Assembly: GCA_015296085.1 (NCBI GenBank)
Contig: DVDT01000017.1
Span: 1 to 32,171, forward strand
DNA length: 32,171 bases
Source of the DNA: Trichormus sp. M33_DOE_039
Lineage (GTDB): Bacteria; Cyanobacteriota; Cyanobacteriia; Cyanobacteriales; Nostocaceae
Reading direction: 5' to 3'
Numbering within the stretch: the stretch's first letter is position 1; each line of letters begins with the position of its first letter. The notes beneath the pieces are model-generated. The model saw nothing but the letters and a program-made list of their open reading frames with translations, did not search any database and was not told the DNA's origin. The position numbers and the translations under genes were made by a program. Below, piece by piece: positions 1,185 to 16,139 of this stretch.

Positions 1185-1212
1185 CCCCTACATCCCTATA
1201 CCCCTGCACCCC
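1185..1212 (-). repeat. 8-bp tandem repeat at the 3' end of the TfuA gene
   Basis: Read on the minus strand this is a run of degenerate 8-mers of the form GGGGTGTA (GGGGTGCA, GGGGTATA, GGGATGTA). It overlaps the last codons of the TfuA gene, so residues GCRGIGM and the TAG stop are encoded by the repeat. The same unit occurs in the opposite orientation at 2933-2970, on the other side of the gene. Confidence 0.75.
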
Positions 1213-2831
1213 TTTTCAAATTCTTCTGGGTCATTAAAATCCAACCAAAAAGCTACTTGGGTTTTGTTACAAGTTGGCGGAAAGGAATTGAGTTGGCACC
1301 AATTTTTGAATTCAATTTCTTCAGTATCATTTGGGAATTGGGCGGTACGTTCGACTCTTTGGCTTAAAATTGGGTAAAAACCAGATAAATGTAAGGCATC
1401 AGGCAGAAAACATTCACTGACGGAGAAATATTTGCTCATACCTCGCCCCCACCATCGGGGTACATTTACGAATCCCTCTAACCGAGCGATCGCTGTGATC
1501 ATCTGAGCAAATTCGGTTTGACTCCAGCCATTTTCCCGCAGCCAAGTTTCTAAGTCGGCCTCGTTACTTAATCCTCGTTCTTGTAAAAAACGGTACTTGA
1601 TCTTTTCTATAATGCTCATCCTCAGACTGGTTTCAGACTGGCTGTTAGTCTGTTCTGCTAAGGCCCAGAGAGTGGCTACCTGAAGATACAATCGCCGTTC
1701 ACAATTTGCTAACTCTGATGCAGTCTGACTTTCTTCCTCTACAGCAGAGATATCTTTACCAACAATCGTTAAGATGAATTGATGCAGTTTCTCAACCTGT
1801 TGGTGAAAGCTATCCTGTTCACTATAAATTTTGAGCAATGCTTGAATGCGTCCCCAACGTTCTCTTAAGTTTGGTTCTAATTCCTCAGATTTGATAAGTG
1901 CATTGGCTAAATCAGTCCCCAAGGGTTGTAAGTTAAGGCTTTGAGCCACAGCATCACACCATCGCCATAGCCCAGCAAGATTACGTAATTGAACGTAAAC
2001 TTTACCGAGAAAGCGGGCTTCTTGGCAGACTTTTTCCGTTAGAGGTAGCCAGGAATATTTGGTGTGGAATGGACGGATGGTTATTCTGGCTTGGAGTTCT
2101 TCTATAAAAATTGACTTATTGAGTTGAAACTTGACTTGATTCTGGCTGATATTATCCCCCACCATAGTAGCTAGATGTTTCAGCAGTCCAATAGCATCTA
2201 ATTGTTTTTGATCCACATAGCCGCCGTTATTCACAAATTCCCAAAACTGGGCTAAAACTTTAGGATTACCTCCCTGTACCTCAGCGTCCACTACAGCTTG
2301 GCGCAAGTGTCGTTGAGTGAAGAATTGCCGCTTGGCACAACTAATAATTAAATTAGCGATCGCTGGATCAATAATATTTTCAGACACCGCATGGTTAACT
2401 GTGGCGCGGATATTGACTAAAGCATCGGTCAAAGGCTGATACCGGGCGGTAGCGTTGCTGTGTAAAACGGCTACTTCATCATCCCCGATATACTTACCCT
2501 CATGGTAGGCAGCAAAAATTGCGCCAAATCCCTCCATCCCAAAGGCTTCTAGTTCAGCCGCCCGTAATGCACCCATACTACTTGCCCCAAATACCCGTAC
2601 CCCTGTAGTGATCGCCCACATGATTTCTTTATGCCAAACTGAAGCACTGCGGTCAAAAAAACCATCAATGATTGCAATTACACGCGGTTGCAATCGCAGA
2701 CAAGCCAAAATATCGCCACAACGGACAGGGGAAAGATAACAAGCTGGTAAAATCTGACTAGCTTCGCTGACAGAAAGAGTAGGGCCAAGATAAATGAAAA
2801 TTTGACTAGGTTCTAAAGGTATCGAATCCAT
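1188..2831 (-). CDS. TfuA-like RiPP maturation protein, long form
   Basis: A 547-residue protein with an N-terminal TfuA domain (about residues 10-165). The landmarks are 'AIIDGFFDRSASVWHKEI' (54-70), 'GASSMGALRAAEL' (82-94) and 'GDDEVAVLH' (116-124). TfuA was named from trifolitoxin production and is the usual partner of a class of YcaO enzymes; in thioviridamide-type RiPPs and in methyl-coenzyme M reductase modification the pair makes backbone thioamides, with TfuA thought to deliver sulfur. The roughly 380-residue C-terminal extension is mostly helical-looking and I recognise no domain in it. The gene follows the YcaO gene on the same strand after 230 bp of repetitive spacer. No clear Shine-Dalgarno precedes ATG 2831. 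The last residues are encoded by an 8-bp repeat. Family assignment is firm; reaction is inferred from family. Confidence 0.85.
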   Translation of the reverse strand: MDSIPLEPSQIFIYLGPTLSVSEASQILPACYLSPVRCGDILACLRLQPRVIAIIDGFFDRSASVWHKEIMWAITTGVRVFGASSMGALRAAELEAFGMEGFGAIFAAYHEGKYIGDDEVAVLHSNATARYQPLTDALVNIRATVNHAVSENIIDPAIANLIISCAKRQFFTQRHLRQAVVDAEVQGGNPKVLAQFWEFVNNGGYVDQKQLDAIGLLKHLATMVGDNISQNQVKFQLNKSIFIEELQARITIRPFHTKYSWLPLTEKVCQEARFLGKVYVQLRNLAGLWRWCDAVAQSLNLQPLGTDLANALIKSEELEPNLRERWGRIQALLKIYSEQDSFHQQVEKLHQFILTIVGKDISAVEEESQTASELANCERRLYLQVATLWALAEQTNSQSETSLRMSIIEKIKYRFLQERGLSNEADLETWLRENGWSQTEFAQMITAIARLEGFVNVPRWWGRGMSKYFSVSECFLPDALHLSGFYPILSQRVERTAQFPNDTEEIEFKNWCQLNSFPPTCNKTQVAFWLDFNDPEEFEKGCRGIGM

Positions 2832-2890
2832 GTTGATGTTTACCGAAATTTTGGGTCTAAAGCCCCGTCATCCGCCAATCCCCTGTCTCA

Positions 2891-3038
2891 CAGGTGTAGG
2901 TTTTTTCCGCTTTGCCTATAAGACAATGTTTTAGGGTGTAAGGGTATAGGGGTGTAGGGGTGTAGGGGTGAATAAAAATATCATTCTGTCGTTGGTTTGA
3001 TAGTCATCACTCACTGCTCTATTAGAAACCTACACTTG
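2891..3038. repeat. Imperfect inverted repeat spanning the YcaO-TfuA spacer
   Basis: CAGGTGTAGGTTT at 2891-2903 is complementary in 12 of 13 positions to AAACCTACACTTG at 3026-3038. The arms are about 120 bp apart and enclose the 8-bp tandem repeat. Just outside them a direct repeat CAATCCCCTGTC occurs on both sides (near 2877 and 3043). This looks like a small repeat-type insertion between two genes that would otherwise be close together. Confidence 0.5.
2933..2970 (+). repeat. 8-bp tandem repeat (GGGTGTAG units)
   Basis: About four and a half copies of an 8-bp unit: GGGTGTAA, GGGTATAG, GGGTGTAG, GGGTGTAG, GGGTG. Short tandem repeats of this size are common in spacers of Nostoc-type genomes. 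A related run in reverse orientation sits at 1185-1212. Confidence 0.8.
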
Positions 3039-3061
3039 TCAGCAATCCCCTGTCCCCATCA

Positions 3062-4270
3062 TCAATAAACCGAAGGTAAATGCGTTCCTGGGACGACGAC
3101 ATGGACTACAGGAAAGCCAAACTCTGGGCGCGTATGATTGACGTAAACTGCTTGATTCAACCCTAGATTGCTGAGACAGTCGAGAATTTGCTGAATTTCC
3201 TCGGCAAAAGTGGAAGTCGGGGGGAGTTCCGGCTGAGTTTCAAAATCAATCAGGGTGGCGATGGGTCTTTTACTAGTAGATTTAACAGCGGGGCTACCTG
3301 GCAATTTGAAGCGTCCGAGGGCATAACTGTCAGGATGAATGTCATCACGACTGCCTGCAATCACTGTTACACGCGACTGAGCCGCTTCTGTAATCGCCCG
3401 TGCTAAAGCTACCTCTTTGGAACTGTGACAACCCCATCCGGCTGCTGTGGGTCGTCCAGACCAATTTTCTTGATCACTGATCAAGCATTTGTATGTAGGT
3501 ATGCCTACAGTGCTAGTTAAATCAGTTACTACGGCTGCTGCTCCTGCCTTTTTCACTTGCTGAAGTAATGATTGTAACATCGGTGAATTGATGGACTGAG
3601 TATCAACTATGCAGTTAATACGTTGTTCTATTGGTAATTGCCACCAACGCCACTCGGCTTCGCGTTCTATGACTTCAAATAGTCCGTGTGCGATCGCCTC
3701 TAGTAAATGGTTGCCTGATGCTAGTCCATTGCTGGATGAACTAAATAGATTTGTGTCACGTTTTTCTGCGGTGGTGTCTAGATCCAAATAAGCCTGTGGT
3801 ATGTAAACGGGTTGATTGGTGAATAGATCAGTGCCACAAATCCAATCTAGTGGTCTATGAGGATGATAAGACGGCCAATTTTTCCCAGGCTCTAAAACAC
3901 TGGGTGCGATCGCTTGGTGATTACGGCATATTTCTTCATAAGAAGCAACTATCTCTGGCTCTGGCAGATTTTCAGCGTGATAAGACTCCACAGATTCCAT
4001 TGTGGCGGAAATCATCGCTAACAGCCAGGAAATTCCTTTACCTTGAGAACCTGAAAAGGCTTTCCCGTTAGGTCGAATCGCTTGAGCAACAGGAATACCA
4101 ATGCAGTCAAGACCAGTAATATCCGCAATCCGTGTGATGCCAAAAATAGGCAGAAATTCTTGTAGTCGCTCCCATGTGGTGTGGGGTTCTTGTGTGCGAA
4201 ATGTACCATCCAGATTTAATTTAGGCGCAATCAGATTTTGCCACATCTGCTTGTTTTGTTGCTCAACCAT
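3062..4270 (-). CDS. YcaO-domain ATP-dependent RiPP maturase
   Basis: A 402-residue YcaO protein. Seen in sequence: 'ITGLDCIGIPVAQAIRP' (51-67); 'GSQGKGISWLLA' (74-85) with following E92, E95; the nucleotide-binding stretch 'SSSSNGLASGN' (177-187); E191, E199 and E202 in the helix 'EAIAHGLFEVIERE'; and 'RAITEAAQSR' (290-299) followed by 'GSRDD'. These are the conserved ATP/Mg-binding elements, so the enzyme should be active. It lacks the Pro-rich PxPxP C-terminus of azoline cyclodehydratases, ending instead in 'PGTHLPSVY', and has no fused E1-like partner. Together with the adjacent TfuA gene this favours backbone thioamidation, although azoline formation at the Cys residues of the precursor is not excluded. 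It lies 191 bp after the precursor gene, beyond a terminator-like hairpin. No good Shine-Dalgarno precedes ATG 4270. Confidence 0.93.
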   Translation of the reverse strand: MVEQQNKQMWQNLIAPKLNLDGTFRTQEPHTTWERLQEFLPIFGITRIADITGLDCIGIPVAQAIRPNGKAFSGSQGKGISWLLAMISATMESVESYHAENLPEPEIVASYEEICRNHQAIAPSVLEPGKNWPSYHPHRPLDWICGTDLFTNQPVYIPQAYLDLDTTAEKRDTNLFSSSSNGLASGNHLLEAIAHGLFEVIEREAEWRWWQLPIEQRINCIVDTQSINSPMLQSLLQQVKKAGAAAVVTDLTSTVGIPTYKCLISDQENWSGRPTAAGWGCHSSKEVALARAITEAAQSRVTVIAGSRDDIHPDSYALGRFKLPGSPAVKSTSKRPIATLIDFETQPELPPTSTFAEEIQQILDCLSNLGLNQAVYVNHTRPEFGFPVVHVVVPGTHLPSVY

Positions 4271-4349
4271 TGCAGCGAGTTATATCAATTCAAAATGAAA
4301 GAACCCCTAGAAGGAGATCAGGAATAATTTACAATTCAGCAAAATATAA

Positions 4350-4377
4350 GCACCTCCATTGAAGTTGATGGAAGTGC
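4350..4377 (-). terminator. Attenuator-like hairpin after the precursor gene
   Basis: Minus-strand GCACTTCCAT and ATGGAGGTGC form a 10-bp stem (one G-U pair) around an 8-base loop, followed by the U-rich tract TTATATTTT. It lies between the precursor stop (4462) and the YcaO start (4270). Such a partial terminator between precursor and enzyme genes usually gives more precursor mRNA than enzyme mRNA; here that is inferred. Confidence 0.7.
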
Positions 4378-4404
4378 CTTGATATCTAGCTGTCAAGCAT
4401 TGGA

Positions 4405-4461
4405 TTAGCTTGATTCAGCAACGCCCTCATCAGAAATTACGCTACCAGCACGAAATCAAGA
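4405..4461 (-). other. Open in-frame tail beyond the precursor stop codon
   Basis: In the frame of the precursor, after TAG, one codon and TGA, the reading stays open for 16 codons (FRAGSVISDEGVAESS) before TAA at 4405-4407. The 9-mer TGCTGGTAG, which encodes the precursor's terminal Cys-Trp-stop, recurs 20 bp downstream in another frame, where it would also read Ser-Cys-Trp-stop. This could be the remnant of an older or longer core peptide, or chance. Confidence 0.25.
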
Positions 4462-4824
4462 CTACCAGCAACACATAATTGTTGATGAGCCTTCTCTAAC
4501 AGCAGCTCCACCAGCTACGCTTTCTAATTCTTCTTCTGACAATTCGCGGTTAGCAGGTCTGGCTTTAATGCCGTTAACGCTGTCGATAGAGCGGATATTC
4601 ACAGATGGCCCAGAACTTGGCAATCCCAGAACCACTCTCTCAGCGGCAACCATTACGGCTTTCACGTCTTCAACGTTAAAATCAAACCCATTAGCTGCAC
4701 CTTGCTCAACGGCGATCGCGGCAAAATCACCGGCTTGAGCAGCATCTAAAGCTTCACGCAAAGCAGAATTTTCTGCCCGCGCTAAAAAATCTTCATAGTA
4801 GTTAACAAAACTTTGCTGTGACAT
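4462..4824 (-). CDS. Nif11-type leader RiPP precursor peptide
   Basis: A 120-residue precursor. Residues 1-60 match the Nif11-like leader family (YYEDFLARAENS...AAQAGDFAAIAVEQGA.GFDF..EDVKAVM). After a Ser/Pro/Asn-rich linker comes 'ELSEEELESVAGG' (94-106), the typical acidic helix and double-glycine cleavage site. The predicted core is the 14 residues AAVREGSSTIMCCW, with two Cys, two Ser and one Thr as possible targets. The frame stays open upstream to ATG 4929, but ATG 4824 is chosen because it starts the Nif11 domain and follows an AGGAG nine bases away. The YcaO and TfuA genes follow on the same strand. The Cys pair suits thioamide/azoline or disulfide chemistry; which residues are changed is unknown. 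Export would normally need a C39-peptidase ABC transporter, absent here. Confidence 0.92.
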   Translation of the reverse strand: MSQQSFVNYYEDFLARAENSALREALDAAQAGDFAAIAVEQGAANGFDFNVEDVKAVMVAAERVVLGLPSSGPSVNIRSIDSVNGIKARPANRELSEEELESVAGGAAVREGSSTIMCCW

Positions 4825-4833
4825 TATTGTATG

Positions 4834-4838
4834 CTCCT
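4834..4838 (-). promoter_or_regulatory. Shine-Dalgarno of the precursor gene
   Basis: AGGAG on the minus strand, nine bases before ATG 4824. It decides the start of the precursor over the upstream in-frame ATG at 4929, and it is much stronger than anything in front of the YcaO or TfuA genes, consistent with high expression of the peptide. Confidence 0.75.
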
Positions 4839-4866
4839 GGAAATTTTGGATGGTTGATATAGATAC

Positions 4867-4884
4867 AACACTTATATAAGTGTT
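4867..4884. promoter_or_regulatory. 18-bp perfect palindrome upstream of the precursor
   Basis: AACACTTATATAAGTGTT is identical on both strands and lies 43-60 bp upstream of the precursor ATG. It contains a -10-like TATAAG/TTATAT core, so it could be an operator overlapping the promoter. No regulator gene is in the locus. Confidence 0.5.
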
Positions 4885-5287
4885 ATGTCCATATTTGTGT
4901 GCAAAAAATCGAACAGATTGATTACGCAATACACGGAAAAATCAATCATAATCAATACAATAATTGAGGTATTTTTTTGTGTCTAGACAAATTACATAAA
5001 ATTTTGTTACGCACACTACAAAAAATTTACATTGTGTATGTACACAGTAGTATCAATTAAATCTTCAATAAAATAAAAACACTACTTATTTAAGTAATCT
5101 ATAAGACGAAAAAATCAAAGTAAGTCCATCTCCTGCACCCTATTCGCCATACACAATCAGGTTTAGGGACAACGCCAATACAGATTAATAAACTTGATGT
5201 GTCTTTTAATAAACAATAAAACTAGTCAATACTTGCTTTTAAATAACCACCATCTACACCAATAATTCTTAACTAAAATCATATGGT
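4885..5287. other. AT-rich spacer upstream of the precursor gene
   Basis: About 400 bp with no reading frame of note. It separates the LanB C-terminal-like gene from the precursor on the same strand and most likely carries the precursor's own promoter and 5' leader. Its composition is clearly more AT-rich than the genes around it. No second precursor with a Gly-Gly motif was found in it. Confidence 0.5.
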
Positions 5288-6151
5288 CTAATCTGAATCC
5301 TGTTGGTGTTCGTTCTCTAGAAAGTCGATGATAGCTGGGATTAGCCTACCGGAACGCTGTGAATCAAAGCCGTGGCGGTGAAAAGTGAACATTGCTATAG
5401 CCGCAAGGATATCAGCTAAATCCTGAGTTAATTCTCCAAGATGCTGGAGATTCACTAATTCCTGGGCAAGAATATGATTAGCAATTGTATATCCTTGTAA
5501 TATATCTGCTTCTTGACCGCTGACAGAGTAAAACTGAGATAAGTTTTCCATAGAAAGTAATTTAATTCTGGGAATTGTGGTTTCACCAGGTATGGGAATC
5601 AAAGCTGCTAAACTCTGCCAAGCTGCCAAAGTCGATCGCTGATTTGGCATAACACGGGTAAAAAGATCATGTAACAAGGTTGAGAGAAGTATATCTTTGG
5701 GGACAACACTTAGATGATGTTGATAGAGATAGTCGAGAAAAAGCCATAGGGAAGTGTCTGTGTCAAAGTGCTGGTGAACTAATTGCATGGCTGCTGTCCC
5801 ACCAAATCGATCAGTTTCAGGCTGATATTCACTAAAAAAGAAGAGATGAATAGAATTTTCTTGTTGCAGAGTGTACATTAGCTCAGATATCTCTGCGATC
5901 GCTTGTTTTTGATCTACTTTAGTAAAAAAGCGCAACCGCACATCTGGTGGCTTTCTCATGAAGAAAAACCAGTGCAGTAAACCATGATCCCGCCAGCGAT
6001 TTACTAAGGTGGCGATCCTAGCAAAGAGCAGACGCGCATTTGGTAGTGCATCCCCCTGCTGTCTGACAAGTCCTACATTAAGTTGCAGCCATTCCCCAGT
6101 TTCCCAGTTGTCATTAGTAAATTCTTGAGTTGGATTTGATTCGTTACTCAT
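5288..6151 (-). CDS. Stand-alone thiopeptide-type (LanB C-terminal/SpaB_C-like) RiPP protein
   Basis: A 287-residue protein resembling the C-terminal domain of class I lanthipeptide dehydratases ('thiopeptide-type bacteriocin biosynthesis' domain). Seen: an N-terminal 'WLQLNVGL' (21-28), 'LLHWFFFMRKPPDVRLRFF' (58-76), which corresponds to the family pattern WFFiRY.dp..HLRlR, and 'EYQPETDRFGG' (108-118) followed by 'FDTDTS', matching Y.PE..RYGG...F..DS. In the family this domain eliminates glutamate from glutamylated Ser/Thr, or, when free-standing in thiopeptide pathways, forms the pyridine ring. The glutamylating LanB N-terminal part is absent from the window, so full dehydration is not explained. 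It is first in the minus-strand order, 463 bp before the precursor, so it may have its own promoter. The family is fairly sure, the reaction is not. Confidence 0.8.
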   Translation of the reverse strand: MSNESNPTQEFTNDNWETGEWLQLNVGLVRQQGDALPNARLLFARIATLVNRWRDHGLLHWFFFMRKPPDVRLRFFTKVDQKQAIAEISELMYTLQQENSIHLFFFSEYQPETDRFGGTAAMQLVHQHFDTDTSLWLFLDYLYQHHLSVVPKDILLSTLLHDLFTRVMPNQRSTLAAWQSLAALIPIPGETTIPRIKLLSMENLSQFYSVSGQEADILQGYTIANHILAQELVNLQHLGELTQDLADILAAIAMFTFHRHGFDSQRSGRLIPAIIDFLENEHQQDSD

Positions 6152-6248
6152 ATGGACTGCCTTGATTCTGTTAAATCTAGAAAAGAAATATTGACAATTA
6201 AGGTAAGTCTACAGGAGCATTACGCCAAGTTAGCGGCGCGGAAATCAA
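6152..6248. promoter_or_regulatory. Divergent promoter region of the RiPP locus
   Basis: A 97-bp gap between the divergently read LanB C-terminal-like gene and the oxygenase gene; both promoters must lie here. A TTGACA at 6191-6196 could be a plus-strand -35 box, but no good -10 follows at the usual distance, so the exact sites are not assigned. Confidence 0.4.
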
Positions 6249-7268
6249 GTGGTTATCAATAAAATTGAGCGTATACCAGCACCTCCAAAAGATGAGTTTT
6301 ATCGAGAGTATATTCTTACCCAACGTCCAGTGATTATCACTAATCTCTTTGAACATACACCATTGTCTCAAATGGATACACTGGACAAGGTAAGAACTAG
6401 ACTGGCTGACCTACCAGTTCGAGTCTGTCACAATTACATTGCTCATTTAGTGAGTGGAAAAACAGTCGATGATCCCCGGATGATGAACTTAGGTGCATAT
6501 CTCGACTTTTTGAAAGCACAACCCTTAAATGCGGATATATATGTCGATTATTCGACACCACAAAATTTGTTGGAGTTATTACCCCTGACACAATACCAAG
6601 ATTTTTGGGATGAGAACGATTTATATTCCCATATGTTTGCCGCTGGTGGTAGTAACTACGCTCATCTGCACTATGATGTCGATCAGCGTAACGTTTTGCT
6701 ATTTCAAGTATTTGGTAAAAAGCGGTTTGTCTTGATTCATCCGCGTGAAACTCACAAACTAGATCCCATTGATCAGCCGAATTTATGTTGTAGCAGTGGC
6801 TTCTTTCTAGAAAATATGTCAGAAGTCCAGAAAACGAATTTTCTTGAATATACCAATGCTTTCGAGGTAGTACTTCATCCTGGCGAAACCATTTTCATGC
6901 CGATGATGTTCTGGCACTATATTGAGTATTTAGAACCAGCCATGTCTGTAGTTTATCGTTTGGGACGTAACCCTTATAATCGGCGATTTGCAGAAATATT
7001 TCCCGCCCCATCGGTAGATGTGCAGTCTCTTTCCCTACTGCTGATCAATGAGGAATCTGTCAAGCCAGAGCATATAGCTTGGTTAAACCAATTAGAAAAT
7101 GTCAGTCGTTCATTTAAAGGTAGTGAAAGCGATCGCCAAGCCATCTTAAACTACCTTTGTCTCAAGATGCGTGGACAATATGTCGGATTTGAGCCTATTC
7201 AGACTATGCAGGAATTGACAAGACGGCAAAACATTCTGGAACAAGCTTCACTGTATAGCAGAATTTAA
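6249..7268 (+). CDS. JmjC/cupin_8-type Fe(II)/2-oxoglutarate oxygenase
   Basis: A 339-residue cupin-like protein of the JmjC (cupin_8) class. The N-terminus 'EFYREYILTQRPVIITN' is the characteristic start of the fold. The iron triad is visible as H141 and D143 in 'AHLHYDVDQ' and H223 in 'MMFWHYIEYL'; the 2-oxoglutarate-binding Lys is likely in 'FGKKRFVLIHP' (156-165). Known members hydroxylate protein or peptide side chains at beta carbons. It is divergent from the minus-strand RiPP genes with a 97-bp shared spacer, which suggests co-regulation and action on the precursor core. Thioviridamide-type pathways also pair YcaO/TfuA with a 2-oxoglutarate hydroxylase. The start is GTG 6249 with a weak GGA upstream; an upstream in-frame stop near 6231 limits alternatives. 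Confidence 0.85.
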   Translation: MVINKIERIPAPPKDEFYREYILTQRPVIITNLFEHTPLSQMDTLDKVRTRLADLPVRVCHNYIAHLVSGKTVDDPRMMNLGAYLDFLKAQPLNADIYVDYSTPQNLLELLPLTQYQDFWDENDLYSHMFAAGGSNYAHLHYDVDQRNVLLFQVFGKKRFVLIHPRETHKLDPIDQPNLCCSSGFFLENMSEVQKTNFLEYTNAFEVVLHPGETIFMPMMFWHYIEYLEPAMSVVYRLGRNPYNRRFAEIFPAPSVDVQSLSLLLINEESVKPEHIAWLNQLENVSRSFKGSESDRQAILNYLCLKMRGQYVGFEPIQTMQELTRRQNILEQASLYSRI

Positions 7269-7331: not shown

Positions 7332-9203
7332 TCAATTCTTAGAGCGTATCCTTTCAGGGCTGCCAGTGGGAATAGAGGCAATTAACTTTTGGGTATATGC
7401 TTCTTTAGGTTCGCGGTAAATGCTTTCGGCTGTACCCTGTTCCACAATTTGTCCACGATTCATGACTAAAATGCGATCGCTCATAAATTTGACGACGCTT
7501 AAATCATGGGAGATGAAAATATAAGTGAGTTGAAATTCGTCTTGTAATTCTTTGAGGAGGTTCAATACCTGCGCCTGTACGGACACATCTAAAGCTGATA
7601 CTGACTCATCACAAATAATAAATTTCGGGTTTAAAGCCAAGGAACGAGCAATACAAATCCTCTGGCGTTGTCCACCGGAAAATTGATGCGGATAGCGATT
7701 CATTGCATCTGCATTTAAACCGACTCTTTCTAAAAGTTCGGCTACTCTTTCTCGGCGTTGTTTTTTGCTTTTACCTATGGAGTGAATTAACAAAGGTTCT
7801 GCAATTGCTTCTCCGACCTTCATCCGGGGGTCGAGTGCGCTAAAGGGATTTTGAAAAACAATTTGCATTTCCCGCCGTAACTGCTGCAACTCTTTACCTT
7901 TGAGATGCGTAATATTTTGCCCATCAAAGATAATCTGTCCACCCATCGGTTCAATTAACCTTAACAGAGTTCTACCCAAGGTAGTCTTCCCACAACCGGA
8001 CTCTCCGACTAATCCCAATGTTTCCCCTGGTTTGACATCAAAGGAGACACTGTTGACTGCCATGTGGTAGCGTTTCTTAGTCCCGAAGATACTCCGCACC
8101 GGAAAACCAACTTGCAAATCATGGATTTTAAGTAAAGGTGGTTTCTGTTCTAATTGCGTCAATCTAGTACGCATTTCGGCTGGAGAAACTTCTGGTGGTG
8201 GCGATGGTTCTTTCTCTTGAATCAACAATTGTCCTGTTGGTGTTGTCTCCACACTCATATAGTCAGAGACTGTCAGCAGTTTTTGGGGATGGCGGGTGAG
8301 GGTGGGACGACAAGCAACCAAACCTTTGGTATAAGGATGCTGGGGATGACTAAAAATTTGCTCCGAAGGGCCATATTCTACAACTTTGCCTTTGTACATC
8401 ACCGCCACTTGATCAGCAATTTCCGAAATTAACCCCAAGTCATGGGTGATAAAAATTAACGCCATCTCACGAGTTTGCTGCAATTCTCTGAGGAGGTCAA
8501 TGATTGTCGCTTGGACGGTGACATCTAAAGCTGTGGTTGGTTCATCTGCAATGAGTAGCAACGGGTTGCAAGAAATTGCCATTGCAATCATCACCCGTTG
8601 TAGTTGACCCCCAGAAAGTTCATGAGGGTAGCGTTCCAGCATTGATTCCTTATGATCCTTAACTAGCTGCGCCACCTTGTATTCATCGAGGGGAGAGTTA
8701 GGATTAGTTTGCGGCCAGGTGTCGATGAATTGCTGTTGTAGTTGCTCATCACTAGGTAAAAGTTTAACTTCTTGCAGACCTGCGATCGCTATTTGTTGGG
8801 CTTGGGCTATACTGACATCCTGATGACGTTGAATGGCTTCCGCTAGCTGAAACCCGATGGTATAAACCGGGTTGAGGGAACTCATCGGTTCTTGAAAAAT
8901 CATAGCGATGTCCCCACCTCGGTAGAGTTGCATTTCTTGTGGCGGTAACTCTACCAAATTGATCGGATCAGCATTCGCCTGATGGCGAAACCAAATTTCC
9001 CCACCGCTAATTCTACCGGGATACTGCAACAAACCCATGACCGCTAGGGATGTGACCGATTTTCCACTACCAGATTCTCCTACAATACCTAGAGTTTCGC
9101 CTCGTTTTAGTGTAAAAGAAATGTCATCTACAGCTTTGGTAGTATCGCCATCACTGGAAAATTCTACTTGGAGATTGCGAACTTCTAGGATAGTTTCTCT
9201 CAT
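7332..9203 (-). CDS. Double-ATPase ABC protein, peptide/nickel (Dpp/Opp/Gsi) type
   Basis: A 623-residue fusion of two ABC ATPases, as in GsiA/YejF-type proteins that power dipeptide, oligopeptide or glutathione import. Domain 1 has Walker A 'GESGSGKS' (42-49), signature 'LSGGQLQR' and Walker B '[12 protein letters not shown]'; the linker contains '[17 protein letters not shown]', the oligopeptide-transporter C-terminal motif. Domain 2 has 'GESGCGKTT', 'FSGGQRQR' and '[12 protein letters not shown]'. Both catalytic centres look intact, although Walker B of domain 2 reads DES rather than DEP. No permease or binding-protein gene is adjacent, so partners must be encoded elsewhere, which is usual for cyanobacterial solute transporters. 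It is convergent with the RiPP oxygenase and is import-type, so it is unlikely to be the RiPP exporter. Confidence 0.93.
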
Positions 9204-15147: not shown

Positions 15148-15290
15148 GTCAACTTTGCTCAACCTCATATTTTTGGTATTGAGTTTATCTGCTGATCCTT
15201 AACTGAGCCTGATTTGAACGTATTCAACCTATTTATTGTCATGTAAAAATCTTCTAGTTCAATGTTTTATTTGGGATTTTGAGGTTTTAC

Positions 15291-16139
15291 ATGGCTAAAA
15301 GGACTCAACCTGAACTGATTAATGTTGCTCCACCTTTTGACTTGAGTTTGCTCAATCATACGACTGAGCTAATCATTGAAGCTATCAAGTCTGGTAAATG
15401 TACATTGCTAAAAAACAAGGCTAATTACCGCACAGATAGACCAGCAAACAAGGATAAAATGGGGAGTTTACATACTAGGGGAAACTCGGAATCAGAGGTG
15501 AGTCATCCCATTGATGTTGGTAGAGTCTGTAGGGAAGTTGGAATTGAATCGCCTGTAGTCTGCGTTAACAGTCTACGAATGTTTGGTCAAATTTCCGATG
15601 AAAATCCCCTTCATTTTCATGGTTGTAGTAATTCTCATGCAGGGATGGAATTTATCATTTTTTCAGTAAAGATGATCAGTTCTTACAATCCAGAAACAGG
15701 TGCTATTTTTGCTTCCGAATGCTCACGATATTTTCCATACGAACTTCATTGTGGAGGTGTATCCCCTGTTGTATTCATTTACGAAGAAGATGGAATAGTG
15801 AAGCATATTGCAGCTGAAGTAGGAGATATGTTGATTTTACCTTCAGGGGTTTTTCATGAATTCTCTTGCCTACCAAGGACTTTTGTGGATTTATCCTCGA
15901 TAGAAGTCGCTGCCGATGTCAGTATTCTTTCTGGAGGAAGTTGGACACGAGAACCCGGTTCAACTCCAGAACAAGTTATTTCACGGACGATTCTTCTAGA
16001 AACCGGAAATGCACCTGATAATGTTGATGATTTAACGTTGGCTGATATTCCTTCTTTAAAACGATACGTGGAAACCACTATTCCCAGGTTAGACGCACGA
16101 AGTCTAGATTCCACTAACTTTCTGCTTTCTAAGCATTAA
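15291..16139 (+). CDS. Unrecognised protein with a cupin-like metal site
   Basis: A 282-residue protein I cannot assign to a named family. ATG 15291 is chosen over an upstream TTG (15279) because GAGG lies six bases in front of it. Residues 178-189 read 'GDMLILPSGVFH', an exact match to cupin motif 2 (G-x5-P-x-G-x2-H). Upstream, 'HFHGCSNSHAGMEF' (108-121) resembles cupin motif 1 but with a longer gap between HxH and Glu. A single-domain cupin with a metal centre formed by H108, H110, E120 and H189 is therefore likely. No membrane segments or signal peptide. It ends one base from the stop of the convergent glycosyltransferase gene. Function unknown; a dioxygenase, isomerase or sugar-binding role is possible. 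Confidence 0.75.
   Translation: MAKRTQPELINVAPPFDLSLLNHTTELIIEAIKSGKCTLLKNKANYRTDRPANKDKMGSLHTRGNSESEVSHPIDVGRVCREVGIESPVVCVNSLRMFGQISDENPLHFHGCSNSHAGMEFIIFSVKMISSYNPETGAIFASECSRYFPYELHCGGVSPVVFIYEEDGIVKHIAAEVGDMLILPSGVFHEFSCLPRTFVDLSSIEVAADVSILSGGSWTREPGSTPEQVISRTILLETGNAPDNVDDLTLADIPSLKRYVETTIPRLDARSLDSTNFLLSKH

Follow-up and report, generated by a model that had tools for sequence, protein, structure and literature searches.

Do five neighbouring genes on a cyanobacterial contig, which encode a Nif11-like precursor peptide, a YcaO protein, a TfuA protein, a LanB C-terminal protein and a JmjC protein, belong to one pathway for a ribosomally synthesized and post-translationally modified peptide (RiPP), and if so, which reactions would this pathway carry out? 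The window, that is, the whole stretch of 32,171 nucleotides that was analysed, is the entire contig C64 of the Trichormus sp. M33_DOE_039 genome (7.0 Mb in 116 contigs), and the five genes lie between its positions 1188 and 7268. We find that they belong to a genuine RiPP cluster family whose genes are inherited together; the literature searched held no description of it. We further propose, with a probability of roughly 0.6, that the window carries one module of a Nif11-like-leader RiPP pathway that would combine dehydration, thioamidation, hydroxylation and Trp modification. The proposal is built on gene identities, co-inheritance, conserved residues and a LanB partner found in the same genome; each reaction is inferred from what is known of the enzyme families, and so are its site and the order of the steps.

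All five open reading frames (ORFs) are intact and their identities are readable, as the initial annotation had stated, with family matches to PF07812 (TfuA), PF02624 (YcaO), PF14028 (SpaB_C, the LanB C-terminal or elimination domain) and Cupin_8. Pairwise dN/dS values for the five genes are 0.09-0.26 (against three relatives, or six for YcaO, of the seven available), and the ORFs are thus maintained under purifying selection and not chance ORFs. Scans of the window with Rfam (gathering thresholds) and for tRNAs returned no match.

The five genes had also been claimed to form a single RiPP locus, a claim that the initial annotation made dependent on their co-occurrence across genomes, and their distribution bears it out. 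In a phylum-wide sample of 386 genomes, 6 contained PF07812, as did 13 of 217 genomes of the taxonomic family (16 distinct genomes), and the neighbourhoods of 15 TfuA loci besides the window's were compared. The window TfuA is 70-74% identical to seven orthologues and 24-28% identical to eight other cyanobacterial TfuAs, so that eight of the 16 TfuA genomes have a TfuA of the window type; among the 16, PF14028 is present in exactly these eight. Because a LanB N-terminal protein (LanB-N; 8/217), the JmjC orthologue (8/217) and the conserved end of the precursor (8/208) all fall in the identical eight genomes, we consider that the five genes and their partners form one unit. Moreover, the set is syntenic in five relatives (G338, G518, G422, G499 and G467), with the JmjC gene of G422 on the same strand as the other four. 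In G554 the set is divided between two contigs. In G486 it is divided between two chromosomal places, the pathway as a whole, including the halogenase module, being spread over three (L032, L033 and L047), and the 500-residue halogenase is shortened. A halogenase gene split in the window's own genome, together with the scattered G486 set and its JmjC remnant, might be taken to mean that the five genes are chance neighbours or decaying remnants; with three separate markers in the same eight genomes, the low dN/dS values and the conserved synteny, this explanation is hardly credible.

The five genes had been presented as the pathway, of which they appear to make up roughly half. The set is accompanied by proteins of the metallo-beta-lactamase (MBL) fold, by flavin-halogenase-like proteins and by an exporter of the C39 type: both modules and the exporter lie inside 21-28 kb in G338, G422, G499 and G467, and LanB-N, an MBL-fold protein and a flavin-halogenase-like gene for 888 residues are found in all eight genomes.

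The precursor gene (4462..4824, minus strand) encodes 120 residues. The ORF list gave its start as TTG 4929; relatives and a probable ribosome-binding site AGGAG (4834..4838, minus strand) favour ATG 4824. Its match to the Nif11 leader model TIGR03798 is weak (E 1.1e-5, 25.6 bits, below the curated cut-off of 32.3 bits). The leader ends in L(X)4L...AGG, with LSEEEL at 4525..4542 (minus strand) as the L(X)4L motif, which has a role in leaders of such kind (PMC10858898). AGG, present in all eight cyanobacterial precursors seen, precedes a 14-residue core, AAVREGSSTIMCCW, at 4465..4506 (minus strand). The initial annotation had quoted this core correctly; only its last six residues, TIMCCW (4465..4482, minus strand), are conserved, as T[IV]MCCW, and AAVREGS is not. 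The pattern T[IV]MCCW-stop occurred in 8 of 208 family genomes and its reversed control in 0. The precursors were aligned for seven of the eight genomes; that of G554, read separately, ends in STIMCCW. The Thr of the core end is invariant across the cyanobacterial precursors and the two myxobacterial ones described below.

The product of the PF14028 gene (287 residues; 5288..6151, minus strand; PF14028 E 1.3e-17, TIGR03891 E 4.8e-20), hereafter the SpaB_C protein, had been described as a free-standing elimination or pyridine-synthase-like domain. It is not stand-alone, since a LanB-N partner is encoded on contig C52 of the same genome and near the set in relatives. PF04738, the LanB N-terminal family, is present in all eight genomes, beside the halogenase gene in seven and on another contig in G518; two genomes whose TfuAs are not of the window type have it as well, there with an additional C-terminal segment in the match. 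A LanB-N query from a Polyangiaceae genome matched exactly the eight among the 217 family genomes. Separate LanB N-terminal and elimination proteins constitute the arrangement of LanBB split dehydratases. The SpaB_C protein aligns with NisB across RxR and ExxRxGG, the catalytic elimination residues of NisB, and both motifs are invariant in the seven sequences aligned, including that of the Polyangiaceae locus L053. With a pLDDT of 85.6, the structure model of the SpaB_C protein had the class I dehydratases MadB, NisB and MibB as nearest Foldseek matches (E 4e-10 to 5e-8), followed by TsrL, an aza-cyclase and PbtD at 5e-6 to 3e-5; as modelled, the protein resembles elimination domains more than pyridine synthases, and the elimination half of the earlier description is the one we keep. 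A role as thiopeptide pyridine synthase might be read from the name of TIGR03891, which refers to thiopeptide-type biosynthesis, and from thioamidated thiopeptides, in which TfuA-YcaO is paired with split LanB (PMC8120280); given the Foldseek order, a conserved core end without two Ser and a single PF14028 match per genome (8/8), we hold it to be very improbable. When the SpaB_C protein was used to query 291 cyanobacterial genomes, a sample to which the other seven of the eight do not belong, only the window's own genome was returned, and two plasmid searches gave only remotely similar proteins, one in ten records (eight Streptomyces, one Cupriavidus and one Nonomuraea) and the other in two of Streptomyces.

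LanB-N retains R...R...RTTP in all eight sequences aligned, out of ten (G554, in two frames, and G518 were left out). An activity other than glutamylation is suggested by the pearlin-like scaffold pathways, in which case LanB-N would act as an aminoacyl-tRNA ligase on the C-terminal Trp, extending or activating it, and the pathway would release a small molecule built from the C-terminus. The invariant C-terminal Trp and the flavin enzymes do recall ammosamide biosynthesis (PMC12424672), and a LanB-N without an elimination domain is typical of peptide aminoacyl-tRNA ligases (PEARLs; PMC11962472). We nevertheless think this unlikely: a separate elimination-domain protein is found in 8/8 cyanobacterial genomes and in both myxobacterial loci, as in LanBB systems; the invariant Thr is available; the C39 exporter suggests a secreted peptide; and an invariant E-x-R pair was not seen in the same eight LanB-N proteins, a comparison that contained no PEARL sequence.

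The YcaO gene (402 residues; 3062..4270, minus strand; PF02624 E 8.5e-77) and the TfuA gene (547 residues; 1188..2831, minus strand) are adjacent in the window and in relatives. The PNPOx-family gene that adjoins TfuA (508-1110) was excluded from the cluster because it was matched in 0 of 15 relative loci. The YcaO protein is closest to the McrA-thioamidation model, with a score under the model cut-off, and its closest solved sequence is MJ1094 (E 2.7e-32), which belongs to the thioamidation YcaOs. A C-terminal PxPxP motif, which marks azoline-forming YcaOs, was absent in 7/7 YcaOs examined. TfuA, for its part, is a thioamidation partner of YcaO (PMC8120280, PMC9576775). Alternatively, YcaO and TfuA would form thiazolines at the Cys-Cys pair, the remaining pathway being unchanged. 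This possibility is raised by SrpE, whose LCCCW closely resembles the core end IMCCW: its three Cys are cyclodehydrated by the YcaO SrpC, and its C-terminal Trp is brominated by SrpI (PMC10858898). The absence of PxPxP, the best matches of the YcaO protein and the presence of TfuA all speak against it, as does the replacement of one Cys by Pro in the myxobacterial locus L076, although no YcaO was seen on that 16.5-kb contig. We therefore regard thiazoline formation as a possible but rather doubtful outcome and retain thioamidation as the predicted one.

TfuA consists of an N-terminal TfuA domain (PF07812 E 6.1e-45, residues 56-174) and a long C-terminal extension. It is suggestive that this extension may carry a SurA/PpiC-like helical domain in common with the MBL proteins: 14 of 15 TfuA ORFs score at E 2e-9 to 0.18 among 629 ORFs, a call weakened by one reversed decoy at 2e-5 and one unrelated ORF at 0.013. 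The structure prediction of TfuA had a pLDDT of 36.7 and no reading was drawn from it. A second type of cyanobacterial YcaO-TfuA cluster was encountered at L018, L025, L027 and L028. Its Nif11-like precursors end in CSQW (L018, L025 and L028) or in CGQW and PGPW (L027), and these clusters carry radical SAM, 2OG-Fe(II) oxygenase, Trp halogenase-like and MBL-fold genes.

The neighbours of LanB-N include two Trp_halogenase proteins (PF04820) of 888 and 500 residues and two MBL-fold proteins, one of 589 residues (8/8 genomes) and one of 500 residues (7/8; in G518 the relevant stretch was not covered). The 888-residue halogenase is present in 8/8 genomes, with at least 80% identity in the seven others; in Trichormus sp. 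M33_DOE_039, most of its length is found in two pieces and two frames (L046:7522-10198, contig C52), a split that may be real or an assembly error. The same query detected the 500-residue halogenase in six other genomes and its shortened copy in G486; none from Trichormus sp. M33_DOE_039 was among its matches. The weaker matches in five further genomes are either partial or only 35-40% identical, and they belong to other halogenase-like proteins. The 888-residue proteins have WCWNIP (WxWxIP) in 7/7 aligned and the 500-residue proteins WCW[QR]ID in 6/6, which we take to be flavin-halogenase motifs; the alignments covered the eight genomes except the window's for the former, and except the window's and G486 for the latter. 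The first 380 residues of the 888-residue protein match TIGR03882, PqqD and SagC weakly, all under cut-off (L030:3941-5080). This part looks like a leader-binding unit of thiazole/oxazole-modified microcin (TOMM) pathways, i.e. a RiPP recognition element (RRE) and an E1-like domain, here fused to a flavin enzyme. The exporter is an NHLM-type C39 peptidase-ABC protein (TIGR03796 above cut-off for the L030 copy), with orthologues of 83-100% identity in 8/8 genomes. In the window's genome it is on contig C84; the oligopeptide ABC gene at 7332-9203 of the window was rejected as exporter.

The JmjC gene (339 residues; 6249..7268) is on the plus strand, divergent from the others. Its product matches PF13621 (Cupin_8) at E 2.1e-23 and JmjC_2 at E 2.4e-6, and is nearest to JMJD5/KDM8 (E 4.4e-12) and FIH (E 2.4e-6). 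The metal-ligand motifs are HYD (141-143) and FWHY (221-224), and HYD and [FI]WHY are kept in 7/7 full-length copies, the eighth of the eight orthologues being a remnant. In G499, G467 and G486, TfuA has another JmjC protein beside it, whose G499 copy matches PF08007. Further along the window, the protein encoded at 15279-16139 is cupin-like by eye and lies outside the cluster.

An alignment scan for the SpaB_C protein over one genome per species returned five loci, four of Nostoc and one (L053) of a Polyangiaceae metagenome-assembled genome; it did not return three other genomes of the cyanobacterial eight. The L053 precursor is Nif11-like (leader model E 9e-4, below cut-off) and ends in GSTIMCCW. 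The locus also encodes the 589-residue type of MBL protein, LanB-N, a cNMP-binding-like protein, an HlyD-like protein and C39-ABC, together with a 754-residue protein (L053:8519-10783) that joins the 500-residue type of MBL part with a SpaB_C domain. Their fusion suggests that the MBL-fold part and the SpaB_C domain work together. With LanB-N as query, nine of 377 Myxococcota genomes matched, strongly only that of L053 and G815; as no more than three candidates per genome were scored, nine is a minimum. At the G815 locus, L076, the precursor ends in STVMCPW after AGG. Also encoded there are two MBL proteins, LanB-N, a SpaB_C protein (profile E 7.6e-25) and, beside the MCPW precursor, a B12-binding/radical SAM protein (L076:6772-9423), whose C-terminal end is similar to the SurA/PpiC-like domain found in the MBL proteins and, though weakly, to that of TfuA.

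Since L053 and L076 both hold the split LanB, two MBL proteins and the core end, these appear to be the common part, with YcaO, TfuA, JmjC and the halogenases as a cyanobacterial layer. We tentatively extend this view to a RiPP class of Cyanobacteriota and Myxococcota, in which T[IV]MC[CP]W might be a fixed warhead while the leader and the outer core drift, and in which the halogenase (through RRE-E1) and the TfuA, MBL and radical SAM proteins (through the SurA/PpiC-like domain) might carry their own leader-binding domains; such a class is a possibility that we would put well short of an even chance.

The following pathway may thus be suggested for the cyanobacterial clusters. The leader, with its Gly-Gly and L(X)4L, would present a short core that ends in the fixed hexapeptide T[IV]MCCW. 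Using Glu-tRNA, LanB-N would attach glutamate to the invariant Thr, and dehydrobutyrine (Dhb) would form when the SpaB_C protein eliminates it. YcaO and TfuA would thioamidate a backbone amide of the core, most likely one within MCCW. Hydroxylation of a core residue would be the task of the JmjC protein, and the flavin-halogenase-like proteins, one with the apparent RRE and E1-like domain, would modify the C-terminal Trp. The MBL-fold proteins would also act at some step. Finally, cleavage after Gly-Gly and secretion of the product would fall to the C39-ABC/HlyD exporter.

Several observations weigh against this proposal. The eight genomes are related, and the co-inheritance therefore does not amount to eight independent events. 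Halogenation may be absent in the window's genome, because the 888-residue gene is in two frames and no 500-residue copy was found with the 888-residue protein as query. In G486 only a remnant of the JmjC gene is left. The residue that precedes the Thr is Glu, not Ser, in three relatives. In L076 the second core Cys is replaced by Pro, and in the SpaB_C protein RxR is still present, but the E and R of ExxRxGG are gone. Lastly, YcaO was not found in the metagenome-assembled genome of L053, so that thioamidation would not be essential to the wider family.

The family is rare (8 of 217 family genomes, five loci in the scan of one genome per species), and a stretch of about six residues seems to be the joint target of dehydration, thioamidation, hydroxylation and Trp modification. 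Its halogenase is apparently fused to a leader-binding unit, and the halves of its split LanB lie in separate modules. The stripped-down myxobacterial versions make the role of each added enzyme testable by comparison, and the conservation of the core end in more than one phylum hints at a single molecular target.

How does the family compare with known systems? The initial annotation had found the combination impossible to match to a named RiPP class. For the full set, no published description of a set with JmjC, halogenases and MBL proteins was found in a search that covered titles, abstracts and passages of openly available articles. The combination is not wholly without precedent, because YcaO-TfuA with split LanB and Nif11-like precursors with YcaO-TfuA are both known (PMC8120280). 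Thioamidated thiopeptides (saalfelduracin, thiopeptin, Sch 18640) share TfuA-YcaO and split LanB with the window (PMC8120280); unlike them, the MCCW family has a Nif11-like leader, no second SpaB_C ([4+2]) enzyme that we could see and no Ser-rich core end. Malit et al. (2021; PMC8120280) described 18 cyanobacterial TfuA clusters, some with Nif11-like precursors, with co-clustered bacteriocin biosynthesis proteins, and list Desulforegula among the Nif11-like/TfuA clusters; Tha-1, from a YcaO/TfuA cluster of Desulforegula conservatrix, acquired one thioamide on expression (PMC9576775). The likeness to these systems lies in the Nif11-like precursor with YcaO and TfuA. The words halogenase, cupin, beta-lactamase and JmjC do not occur in the main text of Malit et al., although one of the Nostoc clusters in its supplementary figures may be the window locus. 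In the mpp cluster of Moorena producens, too, a cyanobacterial Nif11-like precursor is found together with dehydration chemistry and a brominase for Trp (PMC11791876). This cluster differs in its use of LanM and its core ACWRWSG, and YcaO and TfuA are not named in the part of that article on which we draw. LanBB split dehydratases of thiopeptides, pyritides and goadsporin also divide glutamylation and elimination between two proteins (PMC11962472, PMC10676384); in the MCCW family, unlike the known LanBB systems, the two genes lie at a distance from each other, each in its own module, and the elimination domain of L053 forms a fusion with an MBL-fold protein. By analogy, the nearest known logic would be that of the srp pathway of sponge microbiomes, which has a long leader, a core end with Cys-Cys-Trp, a YcaO acting on Cys and a flavin brominase acting on Trp (PMC10858898). 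Srp has a proteusin leader, thiazolines and a halogenase without RRE; in the MCCW family, the halogenase has an apparent RRE/E1 fusion, and TfuA, JmjC, MBL-fold proteins and a split LanB are present.

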